NCBI GenBank assembly: GCA_017450705.1
Contig: JAFSTC010000104.1
Location: forward strand, 1-33,892
Direction: 5' to 3'
Length of the DNA stretch: 33,892 nucleotides
Source of the DNA: Lentisphaeria bacterium
GTDB lineage: Bacteria; Verrucomicrobiota; Lentisphaeria; Victivallales; Victivallaceae
The position numbers were made by a program, and so were the translations under genes. Each line of letters opens with the position of its first letter. The stretch's first letter is position 1. This document shows positions 6,224 to 30,167 of this stretch, piece by piece. Below the pieces are notes generated by a model that saw only the letters and a list, made by a program, of their open reading frames with translations, did not search any database and was not told where the DNA came from.

Positions 6224-6247
6224 CCGAGTCACCTCCTGCATGTTGCT

Positions 6248-12538: not shown

Positions 12539-12568
12539 TCCGCCGCGGCTGAACGGGCGGAGTTTTTT
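12539..12568 (+). terminator. Terminator of hisG-hisI
   Basis: TCCGCC (12539-12544) pairs with GGCGGA (12556-12561), followed by GTTTTTT. It begins immediately after the hisI stop. Confidence 0.75.
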
Positions 12569-12642
12569 GCATTGTTCCAGCACGGGGCGGCGTGCGAAAC
12601 CGCCCCCGAAATGCATCGCTTTTTTTGAAAAGGGATGGGGGC

Positions 12643-12698
12643 CCGGGGGAAGGGGAAAACTTTTTTTCACGCGAAAAATAGTTTTCCCCTTCCTCCGG
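12643..12698. repeat. Long hairpin upstream of nadE
   Basis: Arms of 19 bp (12643-12661 and 12680-12698) are complementary except for one G-T position. The inner 13 bp (GAAGGGGAAAACT/AGTTTTCCCCTTC) are perfect. The 18-nt loop carries a T-run and an A-run. It lies 34 bp before the nadE start and after the his terminator. It could be a leader structure of nadE, a second terminator, or a small mobile palindrome. Confidence 0.65.
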
Positions 12699-12731
12699 AA
12701 CGGCCGTCCCTGCCGCAAAAGGAGGAGAAGG

Positions 12732-14627
12732 ATGTTCGGTTTTTACAGGGTCGCCGCCGTCGTGCCGCAGTTGCGGGTCGCGGATGTCGGGTTCAACACG
12801 GAGCGGATCGTGGAATTGATCCGGAGGGGTGTCGAAAAGGGTTCTTCCGTCATTCTTTTTCCCGAACTGTGCCTCACGGGATACACCTGCGGGGATCTGT
12901 TTTTCCAGTCGTCCCTTCTCGACCGGAGCGAGGCGGCTTTGGGGAAGATCGCGGCGGCCTGCGCGGGGACGGAGACCGTCGTCGCCGTCGGCGCGCCGGT
13001 CCGTTTCAGGGGGCGGGTCTTCAATGCCGCGGTGGTGCTGCAGAACGGCGCCATTCGGGGGATCGTCCCCAAGGTCACGCTGCCGAATTACCGGGAGTTT
13101 TACGAGAAGCGCCACTTTTCCAGCGGCTGGAACATTTCGGGCTGCTGCGTCGACCTTGCCGGGGCCGCCGCTGTTCCCTTCGGACCGGATCTGCTTTTCG
13201 CTGCCAACGGCGAGCTTGTCATCGGCGTCGAACTTTGCGAGGACCTGTGGAGCGTCATTCCGCCCAGCAGCCGTCAGGCGCTGGCCGGGGCGACGCTGCT
13301 GCTCAGTTTGTCGGCCAGCAATGAACTGGTGGGCAAGGCGGACTACCGCCGCGGTCTCGTGGCGCAGCAGAGCGCGCGGTGCGTCGCCGCCTACGCCTAC
13401 GCCTCGGCGGGGTGCGGGGAGTCGACCACCGACACGGTTTACGGCGGCCACTGTCTGATCGCGGAGAACGGTTCCATTCTGCTGGATTCTCCCCGGTTCG
13501 ACGAGGAGAGCCGTCTCTATTGCGCCGACGTCGATCTTGCCCGGATCACGGGGACGCGCTATGCGGAGTCCTCCTTCCGGGACGATGCGGAAAAGACCTC
13601 TCCGTCCTTCCGGACGGTCGCCCTGGAGCCCGTCGCGGGACCGGAGGAGCCGGAGCGGATCTATTCCCGCCATCCCTTCGTTCCCGGGGAGGCGTCGGAG
13701 AAGGAGAGCCGCTGTGAGGAGATCATCTCCATCCAGGCCTGCGGACTGGCCCGGCGTCTGCGGCACACCGGCTGCCGCAGCGCGGTCATCGGCGTTTCGG
13801 GGGGACTGGACTCCACGCTGGCTCTGCTGGTGACCGTGAAAGCCATGGCTCTTGCGGGAAAATCGCCCGCCGACGTCGCGGCCGTCACCATGCCCGGTTT
13901 CGGCACGACGCCGCGGACGCTTGGAAACGCCCGCAGGCTCTGCCGGGAGCTGGGGGTCACGCTGCTCGAGATCGACATCACGGAGGCCTGCATGGAGCAT
14001 TTCCGCGCCATCGGTCACGATCCCGAAAAGCGCGATGTGGTCTACGAGAACGCCCAGGCCCGGGAGCGGACCCAGATCCTGATGGACGTGGCCAACCAGA
14101 GGGAGGGGATCGTGGTCGGCACGGGGGATCTCTCCGAGATCGCCATGGGCTACTGCACGTACAATGCCGATCACATGTCCATGTACGCGGTGAACAGCGG
14201 GGTGCCCAAGACGCTGGTGCGTCATCTGATCGCGTGGCTGAGCGACCGTTATTCCCCCGCCGTCAAGGAGATACTCGACGACATCTCCCGCACGCCCGTG
14301 AGTCCCGAACTTCTCCCGGCCGCGGCGGACGGCTCCATCACACAGAGGACGGAGGAGATCCTGGCGCCCTACGAGATCCTCGATTTCTTTTTGTACCATT
14401 TCGTGAAGTACGGGGCCCCGCCCGAGAAACTGCTGTTTCTGGCCTCCCGGACCTTCGGGGAATACCCGGAGGAGGATCTGGAAAAGTTTCTGAGGAAGTT
14501 CCTGCGGCGTTTCTTCAGTCAGCAGTTCAAGCGCAGCTGCATGCCGGACGGGCCCAAGGTCGGCGGCATCAGCCTCTCCCCGCGGGCGGACTGGCGGATG
14601 CCCTCCGACTGCGGCCCATGGGTGTGA
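12732..14627 (+). CDS. nadE: Glutamine-dependent NAD+ synthetase
   Basis: 631 residues. Makes NAD+ from nicotinate adenine dinucleotide with glutamine as nitrogen donor and ATP. The N-terminal nitrilase-like amidase domain (1 to about 290) has the triad Glu45 (FPELCLTGYTCGDL), Lys114 (VPKVTLPNYREFYEKRHF) and Cys169 (GVELCEDLW). The C-terminal synthetase domain carries the P-loop GVSGGLDST (354-362), the GTGDLSEIAMG motif and YAVNSGVPKTLV. Length is as usual for the two-domain form. AAAGGAGGAGAAGG precedes the ATG. The leader holds a strong 19-bp hairpin just upstream, with no readable promoter between it and the gene. It is relevant to the ADP-ribose and TIR genes further right, which consume or process NAD derivatives, although it is a housekeeping enzyme in its own right. 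Confidence 0.95.
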   Translation: MFGFYRVAAVVPQLRVADVGFNTERIVELIRRGVEKGSSVILFPELCLTGYTCGDLFFQSSLLDRSEAALGKIAAACAGTETVVAVGAPVRFRGRVFNAAVVLQNGAIRGIVPKVTLPNYREFYEKRHFSSGWNISGCCVDLAGAAAVPFGPDLLFAANGELVIGVELCEDLWSVIPPSSRQALAGATLLLSLSASNELVGKADYRRGLVAQQSARCVAAYAYASAGCGESTTDTVYGGHCLIAENGSILLDSPRFDEESRLYCADVDLARITGTRYAESSFRDDAEKTSPSFRTVALEPVAGPEEPERIYSRHPFVPGEASEKESRCEEIISIQACGLARRLRHTGCRSAVIGVSGGLDSTLALLVTVKAMALAGKSPADVAAVTMPGFGTTPRTLGNARRLCRELGVTLLEIDITEACMEHFRAIGHDPEKRDVVYENAQARERTQILMDVANQREGIVVGTGDLSEIAMGYCTYNADHMSMYAVNSGVPKTLVRHLIAWLSDRYSPAVKEILDDISRTPVSPELLPAAADGSITQRTEEILAPYEILDFFLYHFVKYGAPPEKLLFLASRTFGEYPEEDLEKFLRKFLRRFFSQQFKRSCMPDGPKVGGISLSPRADWRMPSDCGPWV

Positions 14628-19143: not shown

Positions 19144-20490
19144 ATGAACGGCAAAAAACACTACGTGCACGTGGGAACGGGACAGCGTTCCTGGATGTAT
19201 CTCACCGCCCTGGCGGGCAAACATGCCGACGCGGGACTCCTCTGCGCCCTCTGCGACACCAATGGCCGCCGCATGGACTACTGGAACAGCTATCTGGGGA
19301 AAAATTACCAGTACGGCCCCGTCCCGACCTACCGGGCCGCCGACTTCGACCGCATGATCGCCGAGCAGAAGCCCGACACGGTCATCGTCACTTCCATCGA
19401 CCGGACCCATCACAAGTACATCTGCCGGGCCATGGAGCTGGGATGCGACGTCATCACCGAGAAACCCATGACCGTCGACGCCGAAAAGTGCCAGCAGATC
19501 GTCGATACGCAGAAACGCACCGGCCGCAAGGTGACCGTGGCCTTCAACTACCGCTACGCCCCCCGGAACACCAAGGTCAAGGAGATCATCCGCAGCGGCC
19601 TCGTCGGCACCGTCACCAGCGTGCACTTCGACTGGTCGCTGAGCACGGACCACGGCGCGGACTATTTCCGCCGCTGGCACCGGGACAAACTCAACAGCGG
19701 CGGACTGCTCGTCCACAAGTCCACCCACCACTTCGATCTGGTCAACTGGTGGCTGGACAGCGAACCCGAAACGGTCTTCGCCATGGGCGCGCTCCGCTTC
19801 TACGGCCGGGCCAACGCGGAGTCCCGGGGCATCGACTACCGCTGTTACCGCACCCGGAACGTCCCCGCCGCGGCGCAGGATCCCTTCCGCTACGTCGGAC
19901 CGCAGGACCCCCACTGGAAGGAGGTCTACGACAGCATCTATTTCGGCTCCGAAGAGGAGGACAACTACTTCCGCGACCTGAACGTCTTCGGCGACGGCAT
20001 CAGCATCGAGGACAACATGGGGGTCATGGTCCGCTACAAAAACAAGGCCGTCCTGACCTACTCGCTCAACGCCCACGCCCCGTGGGAGGGCTACCGGGTG
20101 ACCTTCAACGGCACGAAGGGGCGGCTCGAAGTCAACGCCGTGGAGGTCTCTGCCTACAAGGACGTGACCACGCAGGCTTTTCATCCCGTGGACTTCCCCG
20201 GCGCGCGGCCTTTGGAGAAGGAGCGCGGCGAGCTGGTCCCGGAGATCCTCTTCCAGCCCCACTGGGGCAAGCCCTGGATCATCGACTATCCCGAAGTGGC
20301 GGCCGACGCCGACCACGGCGGCGGCGACGAACTGATTTTGCGGCATCTTTTCCGCGGCGTGGAGTCCGACCCCCTGGGGCTGGCCGCCGACAACATCGAC
20401 GGCGCGAGATCCATTCTCGTGGGCATCGCGGGGAACGAGTCCATGCGCACCGGTCTGCCCGTCCGCATCGATTCTCTCGTAAAGTTCTGA
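19144..20490 (+). CDS. Gfo/Idh/MocA family oxidoreductase
   Basis: 448 residues, longer than typical by about 90. Such enzymes oxidise or reduce sugar-type substrates with NAD(P). The N-terminal Rossmann fold reads YVHVGTGQRSW (about 6-16), with GTG plus an Arg in place of the second Gly. The dinucleotide region continues to the diagnostic EKP at ITEKPMTV (about 103-105). The C-terminal substrate domain contains GGLLVHKSTHHFDLVNWW (about 196-213), with a His-Asp pair. Long insertions follow, including segments rich in aromatic residues. The GGGAG site lies 12 bases before the ATG. Second gene of the operon with the TIM-barrel protein. PVC bacteria of the gut carry many such genes. The substrate is unknown. 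Confidence 0.88.
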   Translation: MNGKKHYVHVGTGQRSWMYLTALAGKHADAGLLCALCDTNGRRMDYWNSYLGKNYQYGPVPTYRAADFDRMIAEQKPDTVIVTSIDRTHHKYICRAMELGCDVITEKPMTVDAEKCQQIVDTQKRTGRKVTVAFNYRYAPRNTKVKEIIRSGLVGTVTSVHFDWSLSTDHGADYFRRWHRDKLNSGGLLVHKSTHHFDLVNWWLDSEPETVFAMGALRFYGRANAESRGIDYRCYRTRNVPAAAQDPFRYVGPQDPHWKEVYDSIYFGSEEEDNYFRDLNVFGDGISIEDNMGVMVRYKNKAVLTYSLNAHAPWEGYRVTFNGTKGRLEVNAVEVSAYKDVTTQAFHPVDFPGARPLEKERGELVPEILFQPHWGKPWIIDYPEVAADADHGGGDELILRHLFRGVESDPLGLAADNIDGARSILVGIAGNESMRTGLPVRIDSLVKF

Positions 20491-20559
20491 TTTCCGCGGC
20501 CCGCATCGGAAAAACGGCGGCCGGGGGAGCGTCTCCGCCCCCCCGCGCCCCGGGCGGCT

Positions 20560-21117
20560 TCAGGGGGTCTGAAGCTGCCGGATGAAGGTGCGGGTGTCTT
20601 CCAAAACCGCGCGCGGCACGGCGTTTTTCTCGTTGCCGTAACGGTCATACGCCAAGCCAAGGTGTCTGACCGCGATCTGCGGGAACTTCAAACGGAAATA
20701 CTCCGCGATCAGCAGTCTGTGACAGTTGTAAAGCGCTTGCTCCGCGCAGAGGATCGCCACGCCGTCAAGTTGCGAGGGATCCTCAATCTTGTTCAGCGCG
20801 GAAACGATTTCAGGCGTGAAGTAGGCACGCGCATAGGTGAGCAGATCCCAATTTTGGTCATTGCACGCGGAAAAGACCTCCCTTTGGGGAGCAAGGTCAA
20901 GACGCCAAACGAACTTGATATTTTCGTGTCCGCAGCCCCACGTCATGATCGCGGTGTCAAAGAAACTGCCGCACTGTCCGTTGGGGGAACGGCGGACATC
21001 CCAAATCTCCTTCACCCCCTCCTTGTGCATGAGGGGAAAGAATTTTTCGGGGTGGGAGCCGTTCCACAGCTTGCCGTTGTTGCCGCCGTTTTTGCTCACA
21101 GTGAAAAGATTGACCAT
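20560..21117 (-). CDS. DUF488 family protein, longer paralog
   Basis: 185 residues from the ATG at 21117, chosen for the AAAAAAGGAG site upstream; the longer in-frame start at 21240 reaches into the next gene's end. DUF488 features include the N-terminal strand MVNLFTVSKN, EIWDVRRSPN with Asp-Val-Arg (about 39-43), and VAILCAEQALYNCHRLLIAEYF, the C-x-E ... CHR signature (about 127-148). It is a distant paralog of the 10616 gene. A basic Tyr/Arg tail extends the C-terminus. A perfect inverted repeat CTTCAG/CTGAAG overlaps the stop codon (20558-20574). The gene before it on the minus strand is the ADP-ribosylglycohydrolase, separated by 75 bp and a TATATA element. Confidence 0.8.
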   Translation of the reverse strand: MVNLFTVSKNGGNNGKLWNGSHPEKFFPLMHKEGVKEIWDVRRSPNGQCGSFFDTAIMTWGCGHENIKFVWRLDLAPQREVFSACNDQNWDLLTYARAYFTPEIVSALNKIEDPSQLDGVAILCAEQALYNCHRLLIAEYFRLKFPQIAVRHLGLAYDRYGNEKNAVPRAVLEDTRTFIRQLQTP

Positions 21118-21191
21118 GGTGATTTCTCCTTTTTTTTGGGGGGTGTTTTTCGGGGTGTCCAACCTATATACGCTTTTCCCGCGCTTTTTTT

Positions 21192-22010
21192 TCACCGGGT
21201 CCCGAAAAACGAAGCGGAGAATTCCCGGCAGATCTCCCACATATCCGCCGGGAGCCTCTCATCGATCGCGGAAATCATCTCCCGCGGCATTTCCCCGTAG
21301 AAGGCCAGAGCGATCCCCCCGGTGACGGCCGCGATGGTGTCGCTGTCTCCGCCGACGGATACGGCATTTCTCACGGCGTCCTCGTAATCGGCCGATTCCA
21401 GAAAGGCGAGCAGGGCGACGGGCAGGGTTCCCGGGCAGGAGACGTCGAAGGCGTAGTCCGGCCTGATGTCGTCCAGCGTCCGGGAGGAGAGGTCATAGCC
21501 GAACAGCGACTCCATCTTCTCCTTTATCCGTCCCTTGTCCGCCCCCGTGTTCGCGAGGTGGACGGCCAGCGCGGCGGCCTGCGCGCCTTTGATCCCTTCC
21601 GGGTGGTTGTGGGTCACTTCGGCGGAGGCTTTCGCCAGCTTCAGGACCTCGTCCTCGCTCTTCGCGAAAAATCCGACGGGACTGACCCGCATGGCGGAGC
21701 CGTTGCCCCAGCTGTTGTAGGGCCGGGGGACCGGATCGTCCAGCCAGCGCCGGAACGAGCCGCCGTATCCCGCGTTGGGGTAAAGATTTCCCCATTTGCG
21801 GTATGATGCGCCGAAGTCCAGATGATGGAGCAGGGCATCGGCGGTCGCAACGGTCATCACCGAATCGTCCGTGAACCTGGACCGGAAGGAAAACAGGGGA
21901 AAATCCTTTGTTTTGACGTTGTGCCGTTCATAGCAGGAACCGACGATGTCGCCGCCGATCGCCCCGTACAACGGACAAACCGCCGGTTTCCGAAAATTTT
22001 CCGTGCCCAT
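21192..22010 (-). CDS. ADP-ribosylglycohydrolase family protein (DraG-like)
   Basis: 272 residues. The family removes ADP-ribose from proteins, DNA or small molecules using a binuclear Mg centre. The metal ligands are visible: GAIGGDIVG (about 17-24), FTDDSVMT with Thr47-Asp48-Asp49, and GGDSDTIAA (220-228) with Asp222 and Asp224, giving a complete site. The start has AGAGGG upstream. It is a single gene with promoter TTGCAT/TATATT. In the neighbourhood of TIR and NAD genes it could clear ADP-ribose products, but the family has many physiological roles. Confidence 0.92.
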   Translation of the reverse strand: MGTENFRKPAVCPLYGAIGGDIVGSCYERHNVKTKDFPLFSFRSRFTDDSVMTVATADALLHHLDFGASYRKWGNLYPNAGYGGSFRRWLDDPVPRPYNSWGNGSAMRVSPVGFFAKSEDEVLKLAKASAEVTHNHPEGIKGAQAAALAVHLANTGADKGRIKEKMESLFGYDLSSRTLDDIRPDYAFDVSCPGTLPVALLAFLESADYEDAVRNAVSVGGDSDTIAAVTGGIALAFYGEMPREMISAIDERLPADMWEICREFSASFFGTR

Positions 22011-22058
22011 CTGCGTTTCCCTCTCATTTCCCGCCTGTGTCCGAAGACGTCCGCCGAC

Positions 22059-22086
22059 AATATAGACGGTTTTGACGATTATGCAA
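22059..22086 (-). promoter_or_regulatory. Promoter of the ADP-ribosylglycohydrolase gene
   Basis: On the minus strand TTGCAT (22081-22086), 16-bp spacer, TATATT (22059-22064). Confidence 0.6.
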
Positions 22087-22169
22087 GCTCGGGTTTCCCG
22101 TTTTCCGGCCGCCGGGACCGGCGGGAAAAGTCCCGGCGGCGAAAAAAAACGATATTTTTCGTTTCGGAC

Positions 22170-22197
22170 TTTACTTTGCGGCGGATCCTGTTACTTT
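22170..22197 (+). promoter_or_regulatory. Promoter of the 22222 gene
   Basis: TTTACT (22170-22175), 16-bp spacer, TACTTT (22192-22197). The block TTTACTTT-CGGCGG-TGTTAnTTT is shared with 23034-23061. Confidence 0.55.
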
Positions 22198-22221
22198 ATC
22201 AACACAACAAGTGAGGATACC

Positions 22222-22935
22222 ATGAAGATCCGACCGATCGAAGACCGGAGACGCCGGGAATATCTGATGCGCCTCCTCGGGGGGAAACCCTTCGAAGAGG
22301 CGTGCCGCCTGTACGTTTTGAAAACGCGTTCCCCGCAGTATCTCGCCGTCCAGCCCCTCGAACGGGACGAATATGTCGACGGCCGGCATGAGCATTATTT
22401 TCAACGGGCCGTGAAGCATTTTCCCGCCGACGATCCCGCGGGAAAACACTGCTGTTCCCGCGAAGAACTGATATCGGAAGCCGCCCGGACAACGGGACTG
22501 CCGGAGGAGGAGGCCGCGGTCCTGCTCGACCGGCTTTTCGCTTTCCAGCCGGAACTGACTTTCTGCGAGCGGGGGGCTCTCTGCAAAATGAGCTCCGTTC
22601 CCGGATTTGCCTGTAGCGGCGCGGCGAGGGCGGCGATCCCGTACGGCGTGCTGGCGCGGGAGCTCCCGGAGGAGTGGTATATTTCTCTCCAGATCCCGGA
22701 GCCGGTCATCGAAAAGATGGTCTGGGGGTGCAGAAAAACCGGCAGTCCTGAAGGGTATCCCTGCAGCCGCCGTTTTGCGGAGCGTCTCCTGCGGCTGTAC
22801 AAACGCCGGCGGGGCGAGTTCATCCGGGAATATTCCTTCGAGACCTTGAAATTTTTCTGGCTGGAGTACGGCAGCATGAAGTTCCCGCGGCGCGACGTGG
22901 AACGGGTCGTCGGCCGGATCCTCGCCGCGGCCTGA
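22222..22935 (+). CDS. Uncharacterised basic protein
   Basis: 237 residues, no family recognised. It is rich in Arg and Glu. A central segment has several Cys (about 78-79, 115, 121, 130) around HCCSREELI and GALCKMSSVPGFACSG, possibly a metal-binding arrangement. The C-terminal helices (RRFAERLLRLYKRRRGEF) are strongly basic and might contact nucleic acid. The ATG at 22222 follows GTGAGGATACC. Its promoter belongs to the same TTTACT group as the two MBL modules, the second of which follows within 100 bp, so the genes may be co-regulated. It has no obvious signal peptide or membrane helix. Confidence 0.6.
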   Translation: MKIRPIEDRRRREYLMRLLGGKPFEEACRLYVLKTRSPQYLAVQPLERDEYVDGRHEHYFQRAVKHFPADDPAGKHCCSREELISEAARTTGLPEEEAAVLLDRLFAFQPELTFCERGALCKMSSVPGFACSGAARAAIPYGVLARELPEEWYISLQIPEPVIEKMVWGCRKTGSPEGYPCSRRFAERLLRLYKRRRGEFIREYSFETLKFFWLEYGSMKFPRRDVERVVGRILAAA

Positions 22936-23033
22936 GTCCCCGCGGCCGTCCGGGCCCGGCGGAAAGCGGTCCCGTGCCCGGTGCATTCTGCGTGACGACA
23001 TGCCGGGACGGAAAGGCAAACCGGGAAAAGAAG

Positions 23034-23061
23034 TTTACTTTCCGGCGGTTTTTGTTATTTT
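23034..23061 (+). promoter_or_regulatory. Promoter of the second MBL module
   Basis: TTTACT (23034-23039), 16-bp spacer, TATTTT (23056-23061). It is paralogous to 6753-6781, with GAAGTTTACTTT and TTGTTATTTTCC conserved on either side of a diverged spacer. Confidence 0.6.
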
Positions 23062-23110
23062 CCTCCCGCGGGGGGCATTGGGCCCTCCCGACCCGACACA
23101 GGGAGGTGTC

Positions 23111-23233
23111 ATGAAAGGTTTCGTCGGATCTCACGCGCCGGCGGGCGGTCCCGGAGCTTCCGGGCGTCATCGTCCCGGCGGCCGTGATTTTCGCGGCATC
23201 AGCTGCAGAAGGAGGGCATTGAGATGGAATTGA
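23111..23233 (+). pseudogene. Decayed small-membrane-protein segment
   Basis: Behind a good GGGAGGTG site, the ATG at 23111 opens a 40-residue frame whose first codons (MKGFVGS) mirror MNKFIGA of the 6827 gene. The DNA then diverges by small deletions into a Gly/Arg-rich sequence that is not hydrophobic. In another frame the end (VIVPAAVIFAA) recalls the second helix of the 7029 gene. This suggests that the two small membrane genes once present here collapsed through deletion. The frame overlaps the start of the intact MBL-like gene. Confidence 0.45.
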
Positions 23234-23799
23234 CGGTGAATTCGTTCGGCGGGGTCCTGGTCCGGACGGCAAAAGGCAGTTTTGCGGTCAACGGAGGCGG
23301 TTCTCTGGAAGAAATGGAAAAGGCTTATCTTTCGCCGGAACATCCGCTGACGGCTCTGATCCTGACGTCGGAACACCTCCACCGGTCGCGGAACGCGGCG
23401 CTTTTTGTGCAAAAACATCACATCCCGCTCCTTGCGAGTTTCATCACGCAGTGCCGGATGAGGCTGCGCGACATGCCGCTGCTCTACTGTTTCCCCCCGG
23501 TCGTGGTGGATCTGTACGGCGTGAGGATCGGTCTCCATCACATCCGTTACGATTCCGTCGATCCGGTCTTCCTGACCTTCGATGACGGGGAAAAAAACGG
23601 TGTCGTGACGGACGGGAAACTGGATAAGGACAGTGCGGAAAAACTGATGGACTGCCGCCGGATCCTGCTGTGCAGCGAGGCGAAACTGCATGACGGCATG
23701 CCGCCGGCCCTGCGCCGCAGGATCCTGTCGGTATATAATACGGCGGAGGAACTTGCGGGCTTGTTCCGGGGATACGGCGGCGAGATCATCGGAAAATGA
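23224..23799 (+). CDS. Degenerate MBL-fold (YycJ-like) protein, intact copy
   Basis: 191 residues. The order of motifs parallels YycJ/WalJ-type metallo-beta-lactamase-fold exonucleases: a strand pair FGGVLVRTAKGSFAVNGGGS (8-27), LTALILTSEHLHRSRNAALF (42-61), KHHIPLLASFIT, a late strand around IGLHHIRYDSVDPVF, and GVVTDGKL with Asp130. However, the HxHxDH core is replaced by SEHLHR (49-54): only His51 survives, while the first His is Ser, the Asp is His, and the last His is Arg. Metal-dependent hydrolysis is therefore unlikely, and a binding or regulatory role is more plausible. The fold assignment is from motif spacing only. AAGGAGG precedes the ATG. The 7207 copy is frameshifted. The gene lies behind the TTTACT-type promoter shared by both modules. 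Confidence 0.65.
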   Translation: MELTVNSFGGVLVRTAKGSFAVNGGGSLEEMEKAYLSPEHPLTALILTSEHLHRSRNAALFVQKHHIPLLASFITQCRMRLRDMPLLYCFPPVVVDLYGVRIGLHHIRYDSVDPVFLTFDDGEKNGVVTDGKLDKDSAEKLMDCRRILLCSEAKLHDGMPPALRRRILSVYNTAEELAGLFRGYGGEIIGK

Positions 23800-23861
23800 G
23801 CGGCGTCGCCGGCGGGATCGCCCCGACGGATATTTTTTTCGTTCCGGCGCGCTTCCGGGGT

Positions 23862-23889
23862 TTGACTTTTCTTCGGATCGTGCTATTGT
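23862..23889 (+). promoter_or_regulatory. Promoter of the RCK/RyR protein gene
   Basis: TTGACT (23862-23867), 16-bp spacer ending CGTGC, TATTGT (23884-23889). The leader is about 95 nt and includes an ATG at 23910 opening a 30-residue frame that overlaps the real start, possibly an upstream leader frame. Confidence 0.6.
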
Positions 23890-23985
23890 ATCGGCAGTCC
23901 GGAAAGCCTATGGCCGATCCGGAGCGGGACACCGCCTGTGACGTTTTCGTAAGCTCTGTTTGTTCTTTTCCCGAGGAGACGGATC

Positions 23986-25941
23986 ATGAAAAAATGGTTT
24001 GACAAGTTCATCGCGCAATCATCCCGGGGGCAGATGTGCGCTCTGGCGGCGGCGTTTGCCGTTCTGGCCGTCGCGGGAGGGATCATCGGCCACTTCGTCC
24101 TGGAAGAGGACAACCCGAATTCCGCAAAATTCGGCTTCCGCGGCACCTGGGGGCTGATGCAGTGCGTGGACGGCGGATTCGTGGATGCGACCATTTCCTC
24201 CGACACGAAGATCGCCTCCACGCCCAAAGGCCAGAAGATCTCCGAGAACGCGCCGGTCGCCGTCGTCGTCCTTTCCCTGGGGTTCTGGCTGGGGGGCATG
24301 ATCCTGATATCGTTCTTCACGGGAGCGGCGACGAACTTTCTGGATGTCCGGCGGGAGAAGATCCTCACGGGCAGCGTCGATTATCCCTTCAGCCGGAACT
24401 ATATCCTCATCGTCGGCTGCGATTTTCAGATCCCGAACCTCATCCGGCACCTGTTCAGGGAAAACGCTTCTTCCGAGCCGTCGATCGTCCTTGTGACCGA
24501 TTCGGACGTCGGGCAGATCTACGACGGTCTTCTGCCCGAACTCCTGCCGGCCGAGGCGCACAGGCTGTTCATCATGAGAAAAGACATCACGCTGGACGGC
24601 AGTTATGAAAAGTTCCTGATCACCGGCGCAAGAGAGATATACGTCATCGGCGACGGGAACGCGATCGGGCGCGACGGGAGGACGCTCCAGGCCCTCGATG
24701 CCGTGTCCCGCAAGGTCGCCTGCGAGGTGAAAACCGTTTCGCAGAGTCCCCGGCGCAGACAGATCAAAGTCTATCTTCATATCGAGGACTCCGTGCTCTA
24801 TTCCAATATCAGAGCCGTCAAACTGTCGATGGATGAATTCAAAATGTTCGACCTCGATGTGTTCAACTATTACGAAAGCTGGGCCTGGGAATGCTGGTCG
24901 AACAAAGACTCCACCGACGGCAGGGACGCCTATCTCCCCATCCGTCATGTGAAAGGTACGGAGCGCGCCGAACTTTTCGTGATCGGCGCCAGCCGCATGG
25001 GGCTGGCCATGGTCGATTTCGCCATGCCCCTCATGAATTACGGGGGTGACGGCAAACATTGCAGGATCACTGTTTTCGACCCGGACGGATCGAAGGAGGG
25101 GCTTCTTCCCGACCGGAAAACGCTTGATGCTCTCCCGGAGCTGGAAGTCGTGTTCCGGCAGCTGGAAGGCTGTTCCGAAGAAGCTGACGCCGTCATGCTG
25201 GAAGCCGCGGGCCGGAAAGACACCTCGGTGACGGTCGTCATAGCCGTTCCCGATCCCGGCAGCGCTCTGCGGGTCTACGCCGGTTTCTCCAAACGCCTTT
25301 GCCGGGAGAACATATCCGTCCTCATCTGGCAGGCGGCCGATTCGGAATGCGTCCCCAACAAGTCCTACCTGCGGATGGGCGGCATCGACTCCGTAGCCGA
25401 CAGGAGGATCGTGCGGTATTTCGGCATGACGGACCGTCTGTCCTGGAAGGATCCCGCCCGGTTCGAGTACGGCATGGCGGTCGACTACTATTACAACAGC
25501 TGGTACCCGGACGGCCAGGAACCGCCTCCCGCGTCCCCCGCGGCGACGGCCCCGGACTTCATCGGAAAAGCCAAAGCCATGTGGGATCGGCCTGCGGCTG
25601 AAGCGGAATGGATGAAGATCCCGCGCTGGAAGAAATGGTCCAGCGTCAACTCCGGCGACACCTTCCGCGAGAAGGCGGTCCTGGTTGACGGCGAGCTCGA
25701 TGCCGGGGCCGCGGAGAGGATCCTCAAGGCGGAACATGACCGCTGGTGGACAGAAAGACTGCTCGCAGGCTGGCAGTTCTCCGGAAAAAAGGCCGCGGAC
25801 GGCGGTTCCCATGCCGACAAGGCCAAAATGCTCCACGGGGATATGGTCCCCTTCGAGGAACTTTCGGAAGAGGTCAAGGACAAGGACAAGATCCCCATCG
25901 CCGCAATGGCCGCCTGGGACTTCCTGAAGCAGACCGAGTGA
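23986..25941 (+). CDS. Two-TM RCK/TrkA-N protein with C-terminal RyR domain
   Basis: 651 residues. TM1 is at about 17-37 and TM2 at about 91-113, with a loop between (FRGTWGLMQCVDGGFVD) where a K+ channel would have its filter; there is no canonical TVGYG, so ion selectivity is uncertain. Two Rossmann-like RCK segments follow: NYILIVGCDFQIPNLIRHL (about 138-156) and ELFVIGASRMGLAMVDF (about 328-344), in the style of TrkA-N/CASTOR-like channels. The final about 75 residues form a RyR (ryanodine-receptor repeat) domain: AEHDRWWTERLLAGWQF, then a His/Lys segment, VPFEELSEE and a KDKD. GAGGAGACGG precedes the ATG. RyR domains occur in bacterial proteins of unclear function, some in nucleotide-signalling conflict contexts; the ligand is unknown. 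A gated ion channel or a ligand-sensing membrane effector is the best reading. Confidence 0.8.
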   Translation: MKKWFDKFIAQSSRGQMCALAAAFAVLAVAGGIIGHFVLEEDNPNSAKFGFRGTWGLMQCVDGGFVDATISSDTKIASTPKGQKISENAPVAVVVLSLGFWLGGMILISFFTGAATNFLDVRREKILTGSVDYPFSRNYILIVGCDFQIPNLIRHLFRENASSEPSIVLVTDSDVGQIYDGLLPELLPAEAHRLFIMRKDITLDGSYEKFLITGAREIYVIGDGNAIGRDGRTLQALDAVSRKVACEVKTVSQSPRRRQIKVYLHIEDSVLYSNIRAVKLSMDEFKMFDLDVFNYYESWAWECWSNKDSTDGRDAYLPIRHVKGTERAELFVIGASRMGLAMVDFAMPLMNYGGDGKHCRITVFDPDGSKEGLLPDRKTLDALPELEVVFRQLEGCSEEADAVMLEAAGRKDTSVTVVIAVPDPGSALRVYAGFSKRLCRENISVLIWQAADSECVPNKSYLRMGGIDSVADRRIVRYFGMTDRLSWKDPARFEYGMAVDYYYNSWYPDGQEPPPASPAATAPDFIGKAKAMWDRPAAEAEWMKIPRWKKWSSVNSGDTFREKAVLVDGELDAGAAERILKAEHDRWWTERLLAGWQFSGKKAADGGSHADKAKMLHGDMVPFEELSEEVKDKDKIPIAAMAAWDFLKQTE

Positions 25942-26057
25942 CCGGGGGCCCTGGCCTTCGGACAAACCGGGGATCGGCTCCGTGCGGCAAATGCCCGCGG
26001 CGGCGGTCCCCGGGGACTTCCCCCGTCATTTTGTCCGGACGATACCGGGACATGAAC

Positions 26058-26085
26058 TTGAAAAGCCGCCGAAAGATGCTATAGT
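26058..26085 (+). promoter_or_regulatory. Promoter of the MscS-like gene
   Basis: TTGAAA (26058-26063), 16-bp spacer ending GATGC, TATAGT (26080-26085). The leader is about 115 nt. Confidence 0.6.
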
Positions 26086-26205
26086 AGGGGCCTGTCGGGA
26101 TCCTTGTTTCCCGGCCGGCGTTTTTTCGGGCCTCCGATATGACTCGGAAGCCGGTATCAACAATCAAAGTCCGGCGGTTCTTACCGTCCGGCAGCGGGTC
26201 TGGTT

Positions 26206-27555
26206 ATGGATTTTTCAAAACTGATCGAAGACGATTTTACCGCTGATTTCGCCAAGGATATCATTCAAAAACTTTCGCCTTATCCCTATTTGGCCGATCT
26301 CCTCATCATATTGACTTCCTTCGCGGGCGGCGCGCTGCTTGCTTTTCTGCTGTTTCTGCTGCTGCGGCGCATACTGCACCGTTTTTACCGCCGGCACTGC
26401 GAAATGAACGCGGAGCTTCTGGCTTGCATCCGCCGGATGATCGTCTCTTTCGTAGGGTGTTTGCCGGTGGTGTTCGTCAGTTACAGTATCTGGTGCGACG
26501 GCATGCACGAGTGGGTCGCGGTCCTGATCTGCAAGCCGCTGTGGGGGATCGTGATCGCCCTGCTGACCTTGACCGTGACCTACGGCATCAAAAGCTTCGG
26601 ACTGTGGTACAAGCAGCAGCTCCATGCGGAGCAGCGCCCCATCGACGGTCTGCTCCGGATCGCCGTCAGTTTCGTGTGGGCGGCCGCGATCATTCTTTTC
26701 ATTTCCCTGCTGATCGAGAAAAGTCCGGTCTATCTGCTTTCCGGACTCGGCGCGATCGCGGCGGTCGTGATCCTTCTTCTCCAGCATACGATCCTCTCCT
26801 TCGTCGCCAGCGTTGAGATCAATGTCGACCATCTGGTCGAGATCGGCGACTGGATCGTCATGGAATCCGACGAATTCGAGGATGTCGACGGCATCGTCAC
26901 GGAGATCACGCTGCATACCGTGAAGGTCCGCAACTGGAACAGGACACAGGTCTGTCTGCCGATCTGCTATCTGGTCAACAAACCTTTCGTGAATTATTCC
27001 GCCATGATCAGGGGCGGCGGCCGCCGTATCAAACGGGCCGTTCTCATCGATCAGCGGAGCATCCGCTTTCTGACCCCTGAAGAGATCGAGGTCCTCAAGG
27101 GATTCGACATTTTGAAGGATTATCTCGAAAGCCAGGAAAAGGAGATCGCCCAATACAACGCGGGCCGGTCGCTGTTCAACACCCGGTGTCTGACCAATCT
27201 CGGCGTCTTCCGGATCTATGCGAAACGCTATCTGGAACACCATCCGAAGATCCGCGGCGACTTGACGCTGTTCGTCCGGGAGCTGGCGCCCACCAGCACC
27301 GGGGTGCCGCTGGAGATCTACGGCTTTTCCAACGAGGTGAAATGGGTCCCCTTCGAAGAGATCCAATCGGAGATCATGGAACACCTGCTGGCGGTCATGC
27401 CGAGTTTCCGCCTGCGCGTTTTCCAGGAATGCAGCGACATCTATCAGGAGATCGGCGATCAGATCGACGTCGTCGGCGGCGCGTTCCGCTTCGACCGTCT
27501 GAAGAATCCGGTTTACCCGAACAACGGGAGATATCCGGGCGAACAGGATCAATGA
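26206..27555 (+). CDS. Mechanosensitive channel of the MscS family (YbdG-like)
   Basis: 449 residues. Five or so hydrophobic helices in the first 190 residues end in the pore-lining stretch LSGLGAIAAVVILLLQHTILSFVAS (about 180-204). The MscS beta domain follows (GDWIVMES..., VDGIVTEITLHTVKVRNWNRTQVCLP, about 218-250). The C-terminal part carries GGRRIKRAVLIDQRSIRFL and LTNLGVFRIYAKRYLEHHP, close in style to YbdG of E. coli, which contributes to osmotic protection. A long 5' leader with no good ribosome binding site precedes the ATG (only GGGTCTGG), so the exact start is uncertain. It follows the RyR/RCK gene by 264 bp but has its own promoter. It may respond to membrane tension or to an unknown ligand. 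Confidence 0.9.
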   Translation: MDFSKLIEDDFTADFAKDIIQKLSPYPYLADLLIILTSFAGGALLAFLLFLLLRRILHRFYRRHCEMNAELLACIRRMIVSFVGCLPVVFVSYSIWCDGMHEWVAVLICKPLWGIVIALLTLTVTYGIKSFGLWYKQQLHAEQRPIDGLLRIAVSFVWAAAIILFISLLIEKSPVYLLSGLGAIAAVVILLLQHTILSFVASVEINVDHLVEIGDWIVMESDEFEDVDGIVTEITLHTVKVRNWNRTQVCLPICYLVNKPFVNYSAMIRGGGRRIKRAVLIDQRSIRFLTPEEIEVLKGFDILKDYLESQEKEIAQYNAGRSLFNTRCLTNLGVFRIYAKRYLEHHPKIRGDLTLFVRELAPTSTGVPLEIYGFSNEVKWVPFEEIQSEIMEHLLAVMPSFRLRVFQECSDIYQEIGDQIDVVGGAFRFDRLKNPVYPNNGRYPGEQDQ

Positions 27556-27612
27556 CCCGTCGCCGTGCCGCCGTCGGTCCGGCGGCGCCGGGGATGGCAC
27601 GATCACGGAAAA

Positions 27613-28098
27613 ATGTTTGTCATGCGTTATGTGAAGATCGTCGTCTGCGGGTTGTCGCTGGTGATGCCGGTTGCCGTCTATCTGCTTCTCGATCCGGCGG
27701 TGTGGCTTTCGGCGTATAATCTTTGCTTCGGCGTGATCGGCGCGCTGTTTTTTTTGGATCTGCCGGTCGCGGTCTGTCTGCTCCATTGGCTCCGTCCGCA
27801 GTACTTCCGCCTGAAAAAGAGCGGCTGGTACTCCCCGTTCCCGTGGCTGCTGCTGATGCTGGTGTTCTGGATATATGTCGCGGGCGGAGAGTATCTCGCC
27901 ATCCGGCTCGGCCGCGGTCCGGAGAACGGTTTTTCGGTGTTCTGCGCCTATTGCTTCGGTTGGACGTACATCTGGTTCACGATGATCCCCATCGGTCTGG
28001 TGTACCTTTTGATCCGGGCAGCGGCGCGGCTCGCGTTCAAACAGCGGCCTGTGAAAAACCTGCCCATGTCGGGGACAGAGCCTTTGAACAAAACCTGA
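27613..28098 (+). CDS. Four-TM membrane protein of unknown function
   Basis: 161 residues with four hydrophobic helices (about 6-27, 33-55, 75-95 and 110-135), a Trp/Tyr-rich loop (RLKKSGWYSPFPW) and a basic C-terminal tail. No family is recognised. The start at 27613 is uncertain: only GGAAAA precedes it, and 27622 is another in-frame ATG. It lies 57 bp after the MscS-like gene without an obvious terminator, so it is probably cotranscribed with it and may be an accessory subunit. Confidence 0.6.
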   Translation: MFVMRYVKIVVCGLSLVMPVAVYLLLDPAVWLSAYNLCFGVIGALFFLDLPVAVCLLHWLRPQYFRLKKSGWYSPFPWLLLMLVFWIYVAGGEYLAIRLGRGPENGFSVFCAYCFGWTYIWFTMIPIGLVYLLIRAAARLAFKQRPVKNLPMSGTEPLNKT

Positions 28099-28183
28099 TT
28101 TCAAGTTCAATTCATCCCGGAATCCGTTCCGGAGGTCCTGCCCGCCGGCTGCGGTGAAGCCGGCGCGGGAAGAGATGGCACAG

Positions 28184-28450
28184 TTACGCAAGCAAGCTCT
28201 TCGATTCCTCGAAGATCTTGTGCGAAGTGGTCCCTTCGAATGCTCCTGCCTCGGACAACGCGGCAAACATGGCCGCGTCATCACCGCTCCCGCCGAACTT
28301 GAGCGTGACCGGGGCGATGCCGTTGACCGTGAGGCAGTTCTCTCCGTCCGTGCAGGACCGGGAAAAACTTTCGTCTCCGCGCGATGTGCTTCGGAGGACA
28401 AGTGCGGCTTCGTTCGCCGTTTTCGGGTGCAAAAACGGCGGAGAGTGCAA
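28184..28450 (-). pseudogene. Gene remnant or small unrecognised CDS
   Basis: A minus-strand frame of 88 residues starting at TTG, with natural codon use (CTC, GTC, AAG, GAG) and a sensible composition (VNGIAPVTLKFGGSGDD, then FAALSEAGAFEG). No ribosome binding site is clear. It resembles a C-terminal fragment of a larger protein. The surrounding 28099-28738 holds no other supported gene; the long plus-strand frames there look like shadows. Confidence 0.3.
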
Positions 28451-28496
28451 GTGTCGCTCCCTTCCGGGAGATTTGACCTTTTTTTGCGGTGAATGC
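28437..28496 (+). repeat. Intergenic element, copy 1
   Basis: A segment of about 60 bp with GCGGAGAGTG, TCGCTCCC, GAGATTTGACCTTTTT and AATGCC, matching 33153-33213 over most positions with one gap. It contains CTCCC-TTCC-GGGAG, a small hairpin absent from copy 2. Confidence 0.5.
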
Positions 28497-28738
28497 CCTT
28501 GTCCGGCTTTTGGGATAACAGTGATAACGGTGCTTCAAAAGCATAAAACAGTATTCGTCCGCTGTTTTTCAGGGGGAAAACATCATACGCCGACGGTGAT
28601 ACGTCGAGAGGACGATGATTTTCAAGCGGCGGAGCCGCGCTTTAAAACGCAACACCAACCTTGCCCGCGGAGCGAGAAACCCTCGTCCGCCTCCGCCACG
28701 CCTGCGGCGGGTCAAGTCGTCAGGCGATGAAATGAAGC

Positions 28739-28757
28739 ACGGCTGACGCCGTTTTTT
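28739..28757 (+). terminator. Terminator upstream of the TIR gene
   Basis: ACGGC (28739-28743), loop TGAC, GCCGT (28748-28752) followed by a T-run. It ends whatever transcript runs through the 28099-28738 gap. Confidence 0.65.
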
Positions 28758-28768
28758 CAGGACCCGGC

Positions 28769-28797
28769 TTGTTTTTTTTTTCAGATCGTGATATATT
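28769..28797 (+). promoter_or_regulatory. Promoter of the TIR gene
   Basis: TTGTTT (28769-28774), 17-bp spacer ending CGTGA, TATATT (28792-28797), 33 bp before the start. Confidence 0.55.
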
Positions 28798-28830
28798 AGC
28801 GGCGAATTTTTTTGGGGAAAGGATATTGTC

Positions 28831-30069
28831 ATGCGCCAAAGCGAGTCGATGAGAGAATCCGCTTACGATGTTTTCATAAGCTATTCGTCCAAGAACAAAA
28901 CCGTTGTTGATGCCTTGTGCCATTTCCTGGAAGAAAAAAAGATCCGCTGCTGGATGGCTCCGAGAGATATCCTGCCGGGACAAAACTATGCCGAGGCGAT
29001 AGCGCAGGCTATGAGCAAGGTGAAGATATTCATCCTGGTTTATTCCAATTCTTCCCTGTCCTCGCAATGGGTTCAGAGCGAAACGAATCTGGCTGTGTCG
29101 AAAAAGAAAATAATAATACCGTTCCGGCTCGAGGACTGTTCTTTCGAAGGAACTGCCATGGAGTTATATCTCAACGACCGGCATTGGATCGACGCCATTC
29201 CCGATCCGGCAAAAGCCTTCGGCAATGTGGCGGAAGCGATCTTTTCCTTCCTCCGAATCGTGCCGTCTTCCTTGACAGAAAAGCCCCCGACAGACGGGAA
29301 ACAAGCTTCGGAGGATTCCCGCCCCGCGGAACCGGCAACGGCTTCATCTCCCAACAGAAAAACCGCTCCGGCGTTTGTTGCGGGAAATGCAGATGAAAAC
29401 GAAGCCGAGGCGGAGTCCGTGATCCATTCTTTTTTGGATCATGCCGATGCCGGCGTCGTTGGGCGATTCCTTTCCGCAAAGGGGAAAGCGCGTTTGTTTT
29501 GGATCGCCACGGTGATTTCGTTGATTCTGACTACCGTGTTCATGAGTTGCAATTGTGAGGATCCGGGGGTCGGAGCGTTTCTGTTCTTCCTTCTTTCTCT
29601 CCCGGGCGCAATATTCTTCACGATCAAGGCGTCTTTCTATTCCCGGAAACTGGCATTCCCTTTTGAGATCAAATATGCCGATTTGAAAAGGGCGTACAAA
29701 ATGCGGGGAACCGAGGAGTCCTTGATCGATTCATTTTTGGATCATGCCGATGCCGGCGTCGTCGAGCGGTTTCTTTCCGCAAAGGGGAAAGCACGATCGT
29801 TTGGGATCGCCACAGGTTTTTTTCTGATCCTGTTCATCGTGTTCATGAGCTGCAAATGTGAGGATTTGGGTACTGGGGCGTTTTTGTTCTTCCTTCTCGC
29901 TCTCCCGTGTGCGGTATTCTTCGCGATCAAGGCGTCTTTCCATTCCCGGAAACTGGCATTGCCTTTTGGGATCAAATATGCCGATTTGAAAAATGCGTAT
30001 CGGAAAAGGGCGTGCGAAATGCGGAAAGCAGCAATGAAAAATCGGTCCTGCGACGATCACAACGGGTAA
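28831..30069 (+). CDS. TIR-domain protein with duplicated two-TM unit
   Basis: 412 residues. The TIR domain (about 11-143) has DVFISYSSKN (13-22), RCWMAPRDILPG, FILVYSNSSLSSQW and the putative catalytic Glu84 in WVQSETNLA, as in TIR NADases. A low-complexity linker (about 145-195, Pro/Ser/Glu/Ala) follows. The C-terminal half is a tandem repeat of 101 residues (196-296 and 297-397). Each unit begins with SFLDHADAGVV-RFLSAKGKAR, carries two membrane helices separated by a Cys-containing loop, and ends with KASF-SRKLA-PF-IKYADLK. The DNA of the two units is so alike that the duplication must be recent. GAAAGG precedes the ATG. Bacterial TIR proteins are commonly NAD-consuming defence effectors; a membrane-tethered version might instead signal to or act at the membrane. 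Confidence 0.9.
   Translation: MRQSESMRESAYDVFISYSSKNKTVVDALCHFLEEKKIRCWMAPRDILPGQNYAEAIAQAMSKVKIFILVYSNSSLSSQWVQSETNLAVSKKKIIIPFRLEDCSFEGTAMELYLNDRHWIDAIPDPAKAFGNVAEAIFSFLRIVPSSLTEKPPTDGKQASEDSRPAEPATASSPNRKTAPAFVAGNADENEAEAESVIHSFLDHADAGVVGRFLSAKGKARLFWIATVISLILTTVFMSCNCEDPGVGAFLFFLLSLPGAIFFTIKASFYSRKLAFPFEIKYADLKRAYKMRGTEESLIDSFLDHADAGVVERFLSAKGKARSFGIATGFFLILFIVFMSCKCEDLGTGAFLFFLLALPCAVFFAIKASFHSRKLALPFGIKYADLKNAYRKRACEMRKAAMKNRSCDDHNG
29416..30021 (+). repeat. 303-bp tandem duplication inside the TIR gene
   Basis: The unit 29416-29718 recurs at 29719-30021 with an exact period of 303 bp. Long runs such as TTTTTGGATCATGCCGATGC and TTTCCGCAAAGGGGAAAGC are identical. Differences are scattered and mostly conservative. 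Confidence 0.85.
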
Positions 30070-30167
30070 AACATCCCGCACATCAATCTGACTTGGACCC
30101 GTCTTGCCGACAGTCCACGCCCGAGACCCGATCGGACCGATGCCCCAAAATTCGGCTTTTCTTTCCG

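Follow-up and report, generated by a model that had tools for sequence, protein, structure and literature searches.

A 33,892-nucleotide contig of a Lentisphaeria bacterium (JAFSTC010000104.1), named here the window and corresponding to the whole of contig G000:C76 of a 3.97-Mb assembly that is 97% complete, was found to encode a 651-amino-acid (aa) membrane protein with two transmembrane (TM) segments, two RCK domains and a C-terminal RyR domain (the RCK-RyR protein) and, further along the same strand, a protein with a TIR domain. Genes for RCK-RyR proteins often lie close to genes for TIR or DUF4062 proteins in genomes of different phyla. The interpretation favoured here, with moderate confidence, is that the window genes, as a pair, belong to a TIR-type signalling system based on NAD-derived nucleotides, in which the channel-like protein senses the signal through its RyR domain and acts as the effector. 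The source organism is a gut bacterium; Lentisphaeria bacterium RGIG3598, from goat rumen, belongs to the same genus. The coordinates of the window features are collected in Table 1.

The RCK-RyR protein and the TIR protein

An AlphaFold2 model of the RCK-RyR protein, built on an alignment of 51 sequences (pLDDT 80.5, pTM 0.80), showed in order TM1 (residues 13–38), a pore-helix-like segment (47–61, of low confidence), TM2 (89–128), two RCK domains and, at the C-terminus, a helical domain. The modelled body matched the gating rings of DMI1 and CASTOR (Z 17–18) and the GsuK channel (Z 12–17); a fold with two TM segments and tandem RCK domains was thus found both in the model and by structure comparison. 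Judged by this model, the protein is a channel-type membrane protein of the GsuK/CASTOR kind. It shares the two TM segments and the two RCK domains with GsuK, MthK, CASTOR and DMI1 (gating ring and channel, Z 17–18), but differs from them in its additional RyR domain and in a pore segment without a K+ filter. The TxGYG motif of the K+ selectivity filter is missing from the window protein; a loose form of the pattern appeared in three of the 51 homologues and was judged spurious by eye. Since the filter is absent, the protein is called channel-like and has not been filed as a K+ channel. Pfam found no TrkA_N domain in the window protein; the domain was present in four of the six homologues scanned.

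The RyR domain was matched weakly by the Pfam family PF02026 (E 9.3e-4 and 19.8 bits in the protein; 22.3 bits in the genome search), while all but one of six RCK-RyR homologues scanned exceeded the curated cut-off of this family. Compared on its own with relatives of solved structure, the domain matched 6uhi (a chimera, two copies) with an E of 4.7e-7, and 35tm, 6uag and 3nrt with E values of 0.015–0.022 (0.015 for 35tm_A). Fold comparison with VIA-align identified RyR3 Repeat12 (Z 8.6, root-mean-square deviation (rmsd) 3.5, 104 residues aligned; an entry with azumolene and AMP-PCP) and 4n05, a RyR protein of B. thetaiotaomicron (Z 8.4, rmsd 2.9, 75 aligned), and all rows listed above Z 2.6 were RyR entries; 35TM was not among the rows listed from this library, which extends to April 2026. 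A Foldseek search of the Protein Data Bank (PDB) with the domain alone gave nothing below an E of 0.001 (the best value, 7.3e-3, was for a RyR entry), so the assignment of the fold is based on VIA-align and sequence. Taken together, the model, the structure matches and this homology agree with the initial annotation of the region, made from the DNA letters alone, which had described a two-TM RCK protein ending in a RyR domain.

RyDEP, a phage RyR-domain protein whose structure is PDB 35TM, has been reported to cleave 2′/3′cADPR (cADPR, cyclic ADP-ribose) and to evade Thoeris defence; six of eight homologues bound 2′/3′cADPR, and the other homologues assayed showed no cleavage despite residue conservation (PMC13232231, a preprint of May 2026). 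Residues H584, W587, H617 and D634 of the window protein align to RyDEP H75, W78, H100 and D117, described there as ligand contacts; the comparison covers these four residues, RyDEP Q54 lying outside the aligned part. Over 48 RCK-RyR proteins from the annotated regions described below, a number that excludes those of the window and of its congener G025, the first His and the Trp were found in all 48, whereas 45 keep the Asp and 33 the second His. All four contacts are kept in 30 of the 48, and the window protein keeps them as well. These contacts argue for binding and not for catalysis, given that other homologues do not cleave in spite of the conservation (PMC13232231). The RyR domain probably serves as a receptor for an ADP-ribose nucleotide. 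Its domain family is shared with RyDEP, but RyDEP, a small protein of phages, breaks down or sequesters the signal (PMC13232231), whereas the window domain forms the C-terminus of a 651-aa bacterial membrane protein with a TIR gene nearby. The animal ryanodine receptor likewise holds a RyR fold (Repeat12) with an adenine-nucleotide pocket within a channel protein (PMC13232231), although the body of the window protein is of the 2TM-RCK type.

Alternatively, the RyR domain might be a regulator or off switch that hydrolyses or sponges the TIR product, the RCK and TM parts serving to tether or regulate it. The catalytic pair of RyDEP, H75/D117, is kept in the window protein (H584/D634), and a separate small RyR protein is encoded in the gene groups of some relatives, as this alternative would have it. 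However, these residues do not predict catalysis among the homologues assayed (PMC13232231), the ligand-gated-channel body suits a receptor better, and an off-switch function would come more naturally to the small RyR protein. A degrading or sponging role is consequently considered improbable.

The protein could also be an ordinary channel for ion homeostasis, whose RCK and RyR domains would respond to ADP or NAD and which would be unrelated to TIR signalling. This would suit the GsuK-like fold, the GsuK structures solved with ADP and with NAD, and the ATP analogues carried by animal Repeat12 entries (ligands according to the entry titles). Such a housekeeping role is nevertheless very improbable given the missing K+ filter, the recurrent TIR, DUF4062 or STAND neighbours of its relatives, and its patchy distribution: a search with the RCK-RyR protein found matches in two of 60 relatives and in eight of 387 genomes of the phylum (own genome counted). 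Within the genus (33 other genomes), the same channel was found only in G025 (74–76%).

The second protein of the proposed system was initially described as a TIR protein with a catalytic Glu84 and a membrane half; a Glu at the expected catalytic position and the membrane half were both recognised. When 49 TIR domains from the annotated regions and the window were aligned, the column of Glu84 held Glu in 44, a gap in four and Lys in one. The PADLOC profile for ThsB, the TIR protein of Thoeris, matched the window TIR (3.4e-9). Its C-terminal half (29430–30020) is an internal duplication, with two similar units of two predicted TM helices each. A membrane anchor was considered as a mark of TIRs that accompany RyR proteins and was rejected, as TM segments were predicted in 14 of 26 partner TIRs and in 19 of 40 background TIRs, which is no difference. 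In one protein of G025, from the same genus, a macro-like domain precedes a TIR domain (L143:9066–10547, by eye).

TIR and DUF4062 genes near RCK-RyR genes

In a phylum set of 387 genomes, PF02026 identified 27 places in 22 genomes. A TIR_2 match was present no more than 10 kb from 12 of the 27, in 10 of the 22 genomes. The hsdR gene served as a control: none of its 35 places, found in 18 of the 24 genomes searched (the 22 RyR genomes plus G005 and G025; two rows of one frame were merged, reducing 36 to 35), lies within 20 kb of a TIR gene. A second set, of named genomes, was assembled with a DNA pattern for E-H-x-R-W-x-x-E-x(2)-[FLIMV]-x-G-W, which is blind to TIR and gave at least 117 loci, 80 of them listed. 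The genomes of the first 50 listed loci on contigs of at least 15 kb were searched whole, and 56 regions were fetched; L164 (already present as G128), L200 (genome of L191), L219 (no RyR by profile) and, because 50 had been reached, L220–L226 were left out. Eight of the 50 genomes gave no PF02026 match at the threshold and stand outside the counts; the loci of five of them hold TIR (L151, L171, L175, L176, L216) and those of the other three do not (L165, L186, L201). The 56 regions, together with 23 from the phylum set, make up 79 regions, which were annotated with purpose-built profiles.

Of the 48 RCK-RyR genes, 11 had a TIR open reading frame (ORF) no more than 500 bp away, 18 no more than 2 kb, 22 no more than 5 kb and 23 no more than 9 kb; when DUF4062 was also admitted, these numbers became 12, 22, 26 and 27. 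Diverged forms of TIR and DUF4062 escape the purpose-built profiles, and some regions end at contig ends, so that missed neighbours are in part technical. The steep drop with distance points to a partnership of genes rather than to loose membership of an island. In the named set, 15 of 38 RCK-RyR genes had a TIR within 5 kb (distances from the purpose-built profiles), as against 0.67 expected from whole-genome TIR counts (about one per Mb). The adjacency spans phyla and can be very tight: an 11-bp overlap or gaps of 6–38 bp were seen in L124, L316, L290, L293, L122, L313 and L315, and a gap of 14 bp in L234. Either partner was also present within 5 kb of 9 of 14 small RyR proteins and of 19 of 32 other RyR fusions. 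DUF4062 proteins have been described as TIR-like NADases (PMC13174449); in some of the present loci, a partner of this NAD-cleaving family is encoded beside RyR genes, but the main text of that paper mentions neither RyR nor ryanodine. At the level of the family, a link between TIR and RyR/RCK proteins is therefore highly probable.

In a tree of 55 rows, the presence of a TIR or DUF4062 partner was clustered, requiring 11 changes, a number as low as this being reached in one of 500 shuffles; some branches are long (L124, L120 and others). A starred clade of 11 rows groups the window protein with the TIR-partnered L315, L234, L264, L268 and L128, and five of the seven relatives of known state in this clade have a TIR within 5 kb.

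The gene order varies. A small RyR gene, a RCK-RyR gene and a TIR gene follow one another on one strand in L124, from the genus of the window, and in L268; L131 has the same layout, with a weak RyR part in the RCK protein and a TIR gene cut by the contig end. The order is TIR, one ORF, small RyR and RCK-RyR in L128, and TIR, RCK-RyR and small RyR in L264. In L260, a RCK-RyR gene with an overlapping second RyR frame is followed by TIR and DUF4062 genes. L121 and L119 place a 1624-aa protein (nSTAND1 by Pfam in L119) between TIR and RCK-RyR, while L120 has RCK-RyR, a TIR-NPHP3-TPR protein and DUF4062. Simple pairs were present in L290 (Ignavibacteriales), L315 (Prolixibacteraceae), L316 (Pseudoalteromonas) and L312 (Vreelandella), and tail-to-tail pairs in L310 (Azoarcus) and L293 (Parvularcula); the organism names are those of the pattern-scan loci of these genomes. 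RCK-RyR proteins with TIR or DUF4062 partners, in several cases with a STAND, NACHT or TPR part, apparently constitute a widespread and undescribed group of systems.

In the window, a crude consensus scan found promoter-like sites upstream of positions 23986 and 26206, in addition to the terminator-like hairpins of Table 1. These sites separate the RCK-RyR, MscS-like and TIR genes, so three transcription units are likely. The initial annotation had itself warned of separate promoters and strands, and this caution was justified: the ADP-ribosylglycohydrolase (ARH) gene lies on the minus strand, whereas the RCK-RyR, MscS-like, 4-TM and TIR genes are all on the plus strand. The whole genome (3.97 Mb) contains a single RyR match and two TIR_2 matches; by simple arithmetic from the latter, the chance that a TIR_2 match would fall within 2.9 kb of the sole RyR match is about 0.4%.

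A number of observations weigh against the interpretation as a TIR signalling system with a RyR-sensing channel. Twenty-two of the 48 RCK-RyR genes have no TIR or DUF4062 gene within 5 kb; nine of them are from Alphaproteobacteria, and only some of the others are cut by contig ends. Two of the seven relatives of known state in the window clade are likewise unpartnered. In the window, a distance of 2.9 kb, two other genes and predicted terminators separate the TIR gene from the RCK-RyR gene. G025 carries its channel gene on a contig of 4.6 kb that holds no TIR gene, the TIR genes of that genome being on other contigs; in G005, a close relative of the window TIR (63% in its TIR region) has another membrane half, and the search of that genome gave no RyR match; and the nearest relative of the channel outside the genus (L186/G427, 40% over the whole length) comes from a genome without a TIR_2 match. 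The window RyR score is below the Pfam curated cut-off of 27.4 bits, the missing K+ filter and the low-confidence pore segment of the model leave ion conduction an unproven prediction, and the conserved dyad means that, by sequence, the domain might degrade a nucleotide rather than sense it.

Some of these points would be explained if the two genes were chance or island neighbours, the window TIR being a stand-alone membrane TIR and the RCK-RyR protein being partnered otherwise or having lost its partner. The separate predicted transcription units, the TIR relative of G005, the non-genus channel relative in a genome without TIR_2 and an integrase gene in the window would all agree with such a history, but the low chance value calculated above and the strong family-level link do not, and it is regarded as rather unlikely. 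The proposal of the initial annotation that the TIR works with the RyR/RCK protein is thus supported for the family, where 22 of 48 genes have a TIR within 5 kb, and is weaker for the window. Because of the G005 relative, the pairing in the window genome is something that we infer; the TIR gene is, on balance, likely to be the actual partner of the RCK-RyR gene.

Other genes of the window and other RyR proteins

All the genes that the initial annotation had named within 9.5 kb were recovered as ORFs, by Pfam or by hydropathy, including the MscS-like channel gene and the four-TM protein, as was nadE, 6.6 kb from the ARH gene. The translation of the ARH gene contains TDD and GGDSDT motifs, consistent with 2cwc and ARH3 and hence with the metal site described initially.

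Table 1. Location and assignment of features in the window
Feature	Positions	Strand	Remarks
RCK-RyR gene (2TM-RCK1-RCK2-RyR)	23986..25941	+	651 aa; channel-like effector candidate
TM1, pore-helix-like segment and TM2 region	24022..24369	+	AlphaFold2 model and hydropathy; no TxGYG filter
Tandem RCK (TrkA_N-like) domains	24400..25425	+	residues ~139–480; structure match
RyR (Repeat12-type) domain	25588..25914	+	residues ~535–643; H584, W587, H617, D634
TIR gene	28831..30069	+	TIR residues 14–123; PF13676, E 3.5e-25; candidate signal producer
TIR Glu84 codon	29080..29082	+	expected catalytic Glu, from alignment column
MscS-like gene	26206..27555	+	PF00924, E 3.5e-12
4-TM ORF	27565..28098	+	hydropathy
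MscS-like gene and 4-TM ORF, between RCK-RyR and TIR genes	26206..28098	+	judged bystanders
ADP-ribosylglycohydrolase (ARH)	21192..22010	-	PF03747, E 2.7e-39; judged bystander
nadE ORF	12567..14627	+	PF02540 and PF00795; 6.6 kb from ARH
Terminator-like hairpin 3′ of RCK-RyR gene	26094..26115	+	consensus match only
Terminator-like hairpin just 5′ of TIR gene	28739..28752	+	consensus match only
Two ORFs without known function	22222..22935, 23224..23799		

Whether these genes accompany RCK-RyR genes elsewhere was assessed in 204 fetched loci (198 RyR-bearing, partly overlapping, 2.2 Mb), with a profile for ARH and single sequences for the rest. No homologues of ARH, the MscS-like protein, the 4-TM protein, the DUF488 protein or the products of the two ORFs without known function were found in these loci, and all were rejected as parts of the system; the tyrosine phosphatase alone among the window queries gave a match, once, in L245. 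Accordingly, the joint occurrence of TIR, RyR/RCK and ARH genes within 10 kb, which had been put forward as a check in related genomes, was seen for TIR and RyR (12 of the 27 RyR places of the phylum) and not for ARH. The full circuit of the initial annotation, in which ARH would be the off switch and nadE would supply NAD, is suggested by proximity; the opposite strand of ARH, its absence from the 204 loci and the presence of good ARH relatives in four genomes without a RyR-protein match (G019, G041, G047, G059) make it extremely unlikely. A better off-switch candidate than ARH is the separate RyR protein of about 95–120 aa that is encoded in relatives and not in the window. Directly 3′ of the ARH gene, also on the minus strand (20560–22010 for both), lies a gene for a DUF488 protein (PF04343, PADLOC candidate PDC-M45); the two may form a separate pair of their own.

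A gene of the phage-integrase family is present at 4913–6241 (minus strand) of the window. The channel gene of G025 is followed by ORFs that, by eye, resemble serine-recombinase and RecC fragments (L003:466–1277). Both suggest mobile surroundings. Neither the 50,697 phage nor the 72,556 plasmid records searched contained a match to the window RCK-RyR protein, and the phage records contained none to the L290 protein; in the plasmid search, the L117 protein was found in four plasmids and the L120 protein in none.

Stand-alone RyR proteins of about 95–120 aa (L124:8648–8929, L131:8948–9229, L125:9927–10214, L128:8575–8931, L268:9159–9500) are encoded near RCK-RyR genes, TIR genes or both. Eleven of the 14 RyR proteins shorter than 200 aa keep all four RyDEP contact residues, and small bacterial RyR proteins may be where RyDEP-like sponges or hydrolases came from. 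At L260:4827–6793, the RyR part of the channel overlaps a second RyR frame, and an EHxRW motif is present in both; the channel gene may be frameshifted or duplicated, and the second frame was not counted as a small RyR protein because it overlaps the channel gene.

RyR domains were also seen in other fusions: with RelA/SpoT, accompanied by a weak SLOG match (L117:5126–7780); with AAA (L118:6309–9116 and, by eye, L126:8091–10901); and with a TPR and a cyclase-like part (by eye in L123:6189–8525, which resembles the Pfam-scanned L125:7919–9907). Several of the fusions in L117, L118, L126 and L123 lie near TIR or DUF4062 genes. A plasmid of Arcobacter sp. (CP146529.1; L146:7850–11573) encodes NAD-binding (RCK), RyR-domain and DUF4062 proteins in a row, with an adjoining integrase. 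In conjugative plasmids of Sinorhizobium meliloti (L144 and L145:6374–10953), a RCK-RyR gene recorded as a hypothetical protein starts at the end of a gene for a NB-ARC/TPR (STAND) protein, the N-terminus of which is DUF4062-like by eye and was missed by the profiles. Near TIR-less alphaproteobacterial RCK-RyR genes, two proteins with a GHR-type start appeared SLOG-like by eye (L305:11218–12924, L319:5277–6029); a Pfam scan of the L305 protein gave no match.

Proposed signalling and its relation to known systems

Signalling by a TIR-made nucleotide with a paired effector is already known, in Thoeris. Known Thoeris effectors include SLOG-SIR2, macro-TM and caspase-like proteins. None of these was found among the ten ORFs of 19144–31340 scanned with Pfam, PADLOC gave no ThsA-type match for nine of them, and the 2023 version of PADLOC left the window channel and four relatives unmatched. 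As in Thoeris, the window encodes a TIR protein that carries the Glu found in NAD-cleaving TIRs, and close to it a protein that joins a nucleotide-binding domain to an effector part; it differs in that this sensor and effector is a 2TM-RCK-RyR protein. By analogy with Thoeris and RyDEP, the TIR protein would sense infection, either by itself or through its STAND/TPR parts, after which the TIR (or DUF4062) protein would convert NAD into a cyclic ADP-ribose isomer. A tetrameric RCK channel would bind the isomer through its RyR domains, and this might open or distort a membrane pore. Where present, the small RyR protein could buffer or clear the signal. In the window, the TIR encoded 2.9 kb downstream on the same strand would be the likely producer. 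On the same analogy, the most likely role of TIR/RCK-RyR systems is anti-phage defence.

No description of a RyR-RCK channel as a TIR effector was found among the matches listed by the literature searches, which leave aside the text of one directly relevant preprint. Among these matches, which also include a 2021 review on SARM1, PMC13232231 alone joined RyR domains to TIR or Thoeris defence, and it reports that RyR domains bind TIR-made cADPR isomers as phage counter-defence. The presence of RyR domains on channel-like proteins beside TIR genes in many phyla would represent the host side of that chemistry, with the channel as effector. Put forward more tentatively, these systems could be a bacterial counterpart of animal cADPR-RyR signalling, in which TIR or DUF4062 proteins make the signal upon phage infection, the 2TM-RCK-RyR channel opens when it binds this signal and, in some gene groups, the small RyR protein sets the threshold by sequestering or cleaving it; the orphan RyR structure of B. 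thetaiotaomicron (3nrt) would be of this small class, and RyDEP would be derived by capture from, or have converged on, the bacterial off switch. In contrast to the animal pathway, the bacterial link from TIR through a cADPR isomer to RyR is one that we infer from gene neighbourhood. Whether cADPR-type molecules act on the RyR domains of channels has long been disputed, and these systems would provide a bacterial test bed for the question. If the proposed signalling is correct, an origin in immunity would be suggested for the animal cADPR-RyR link.

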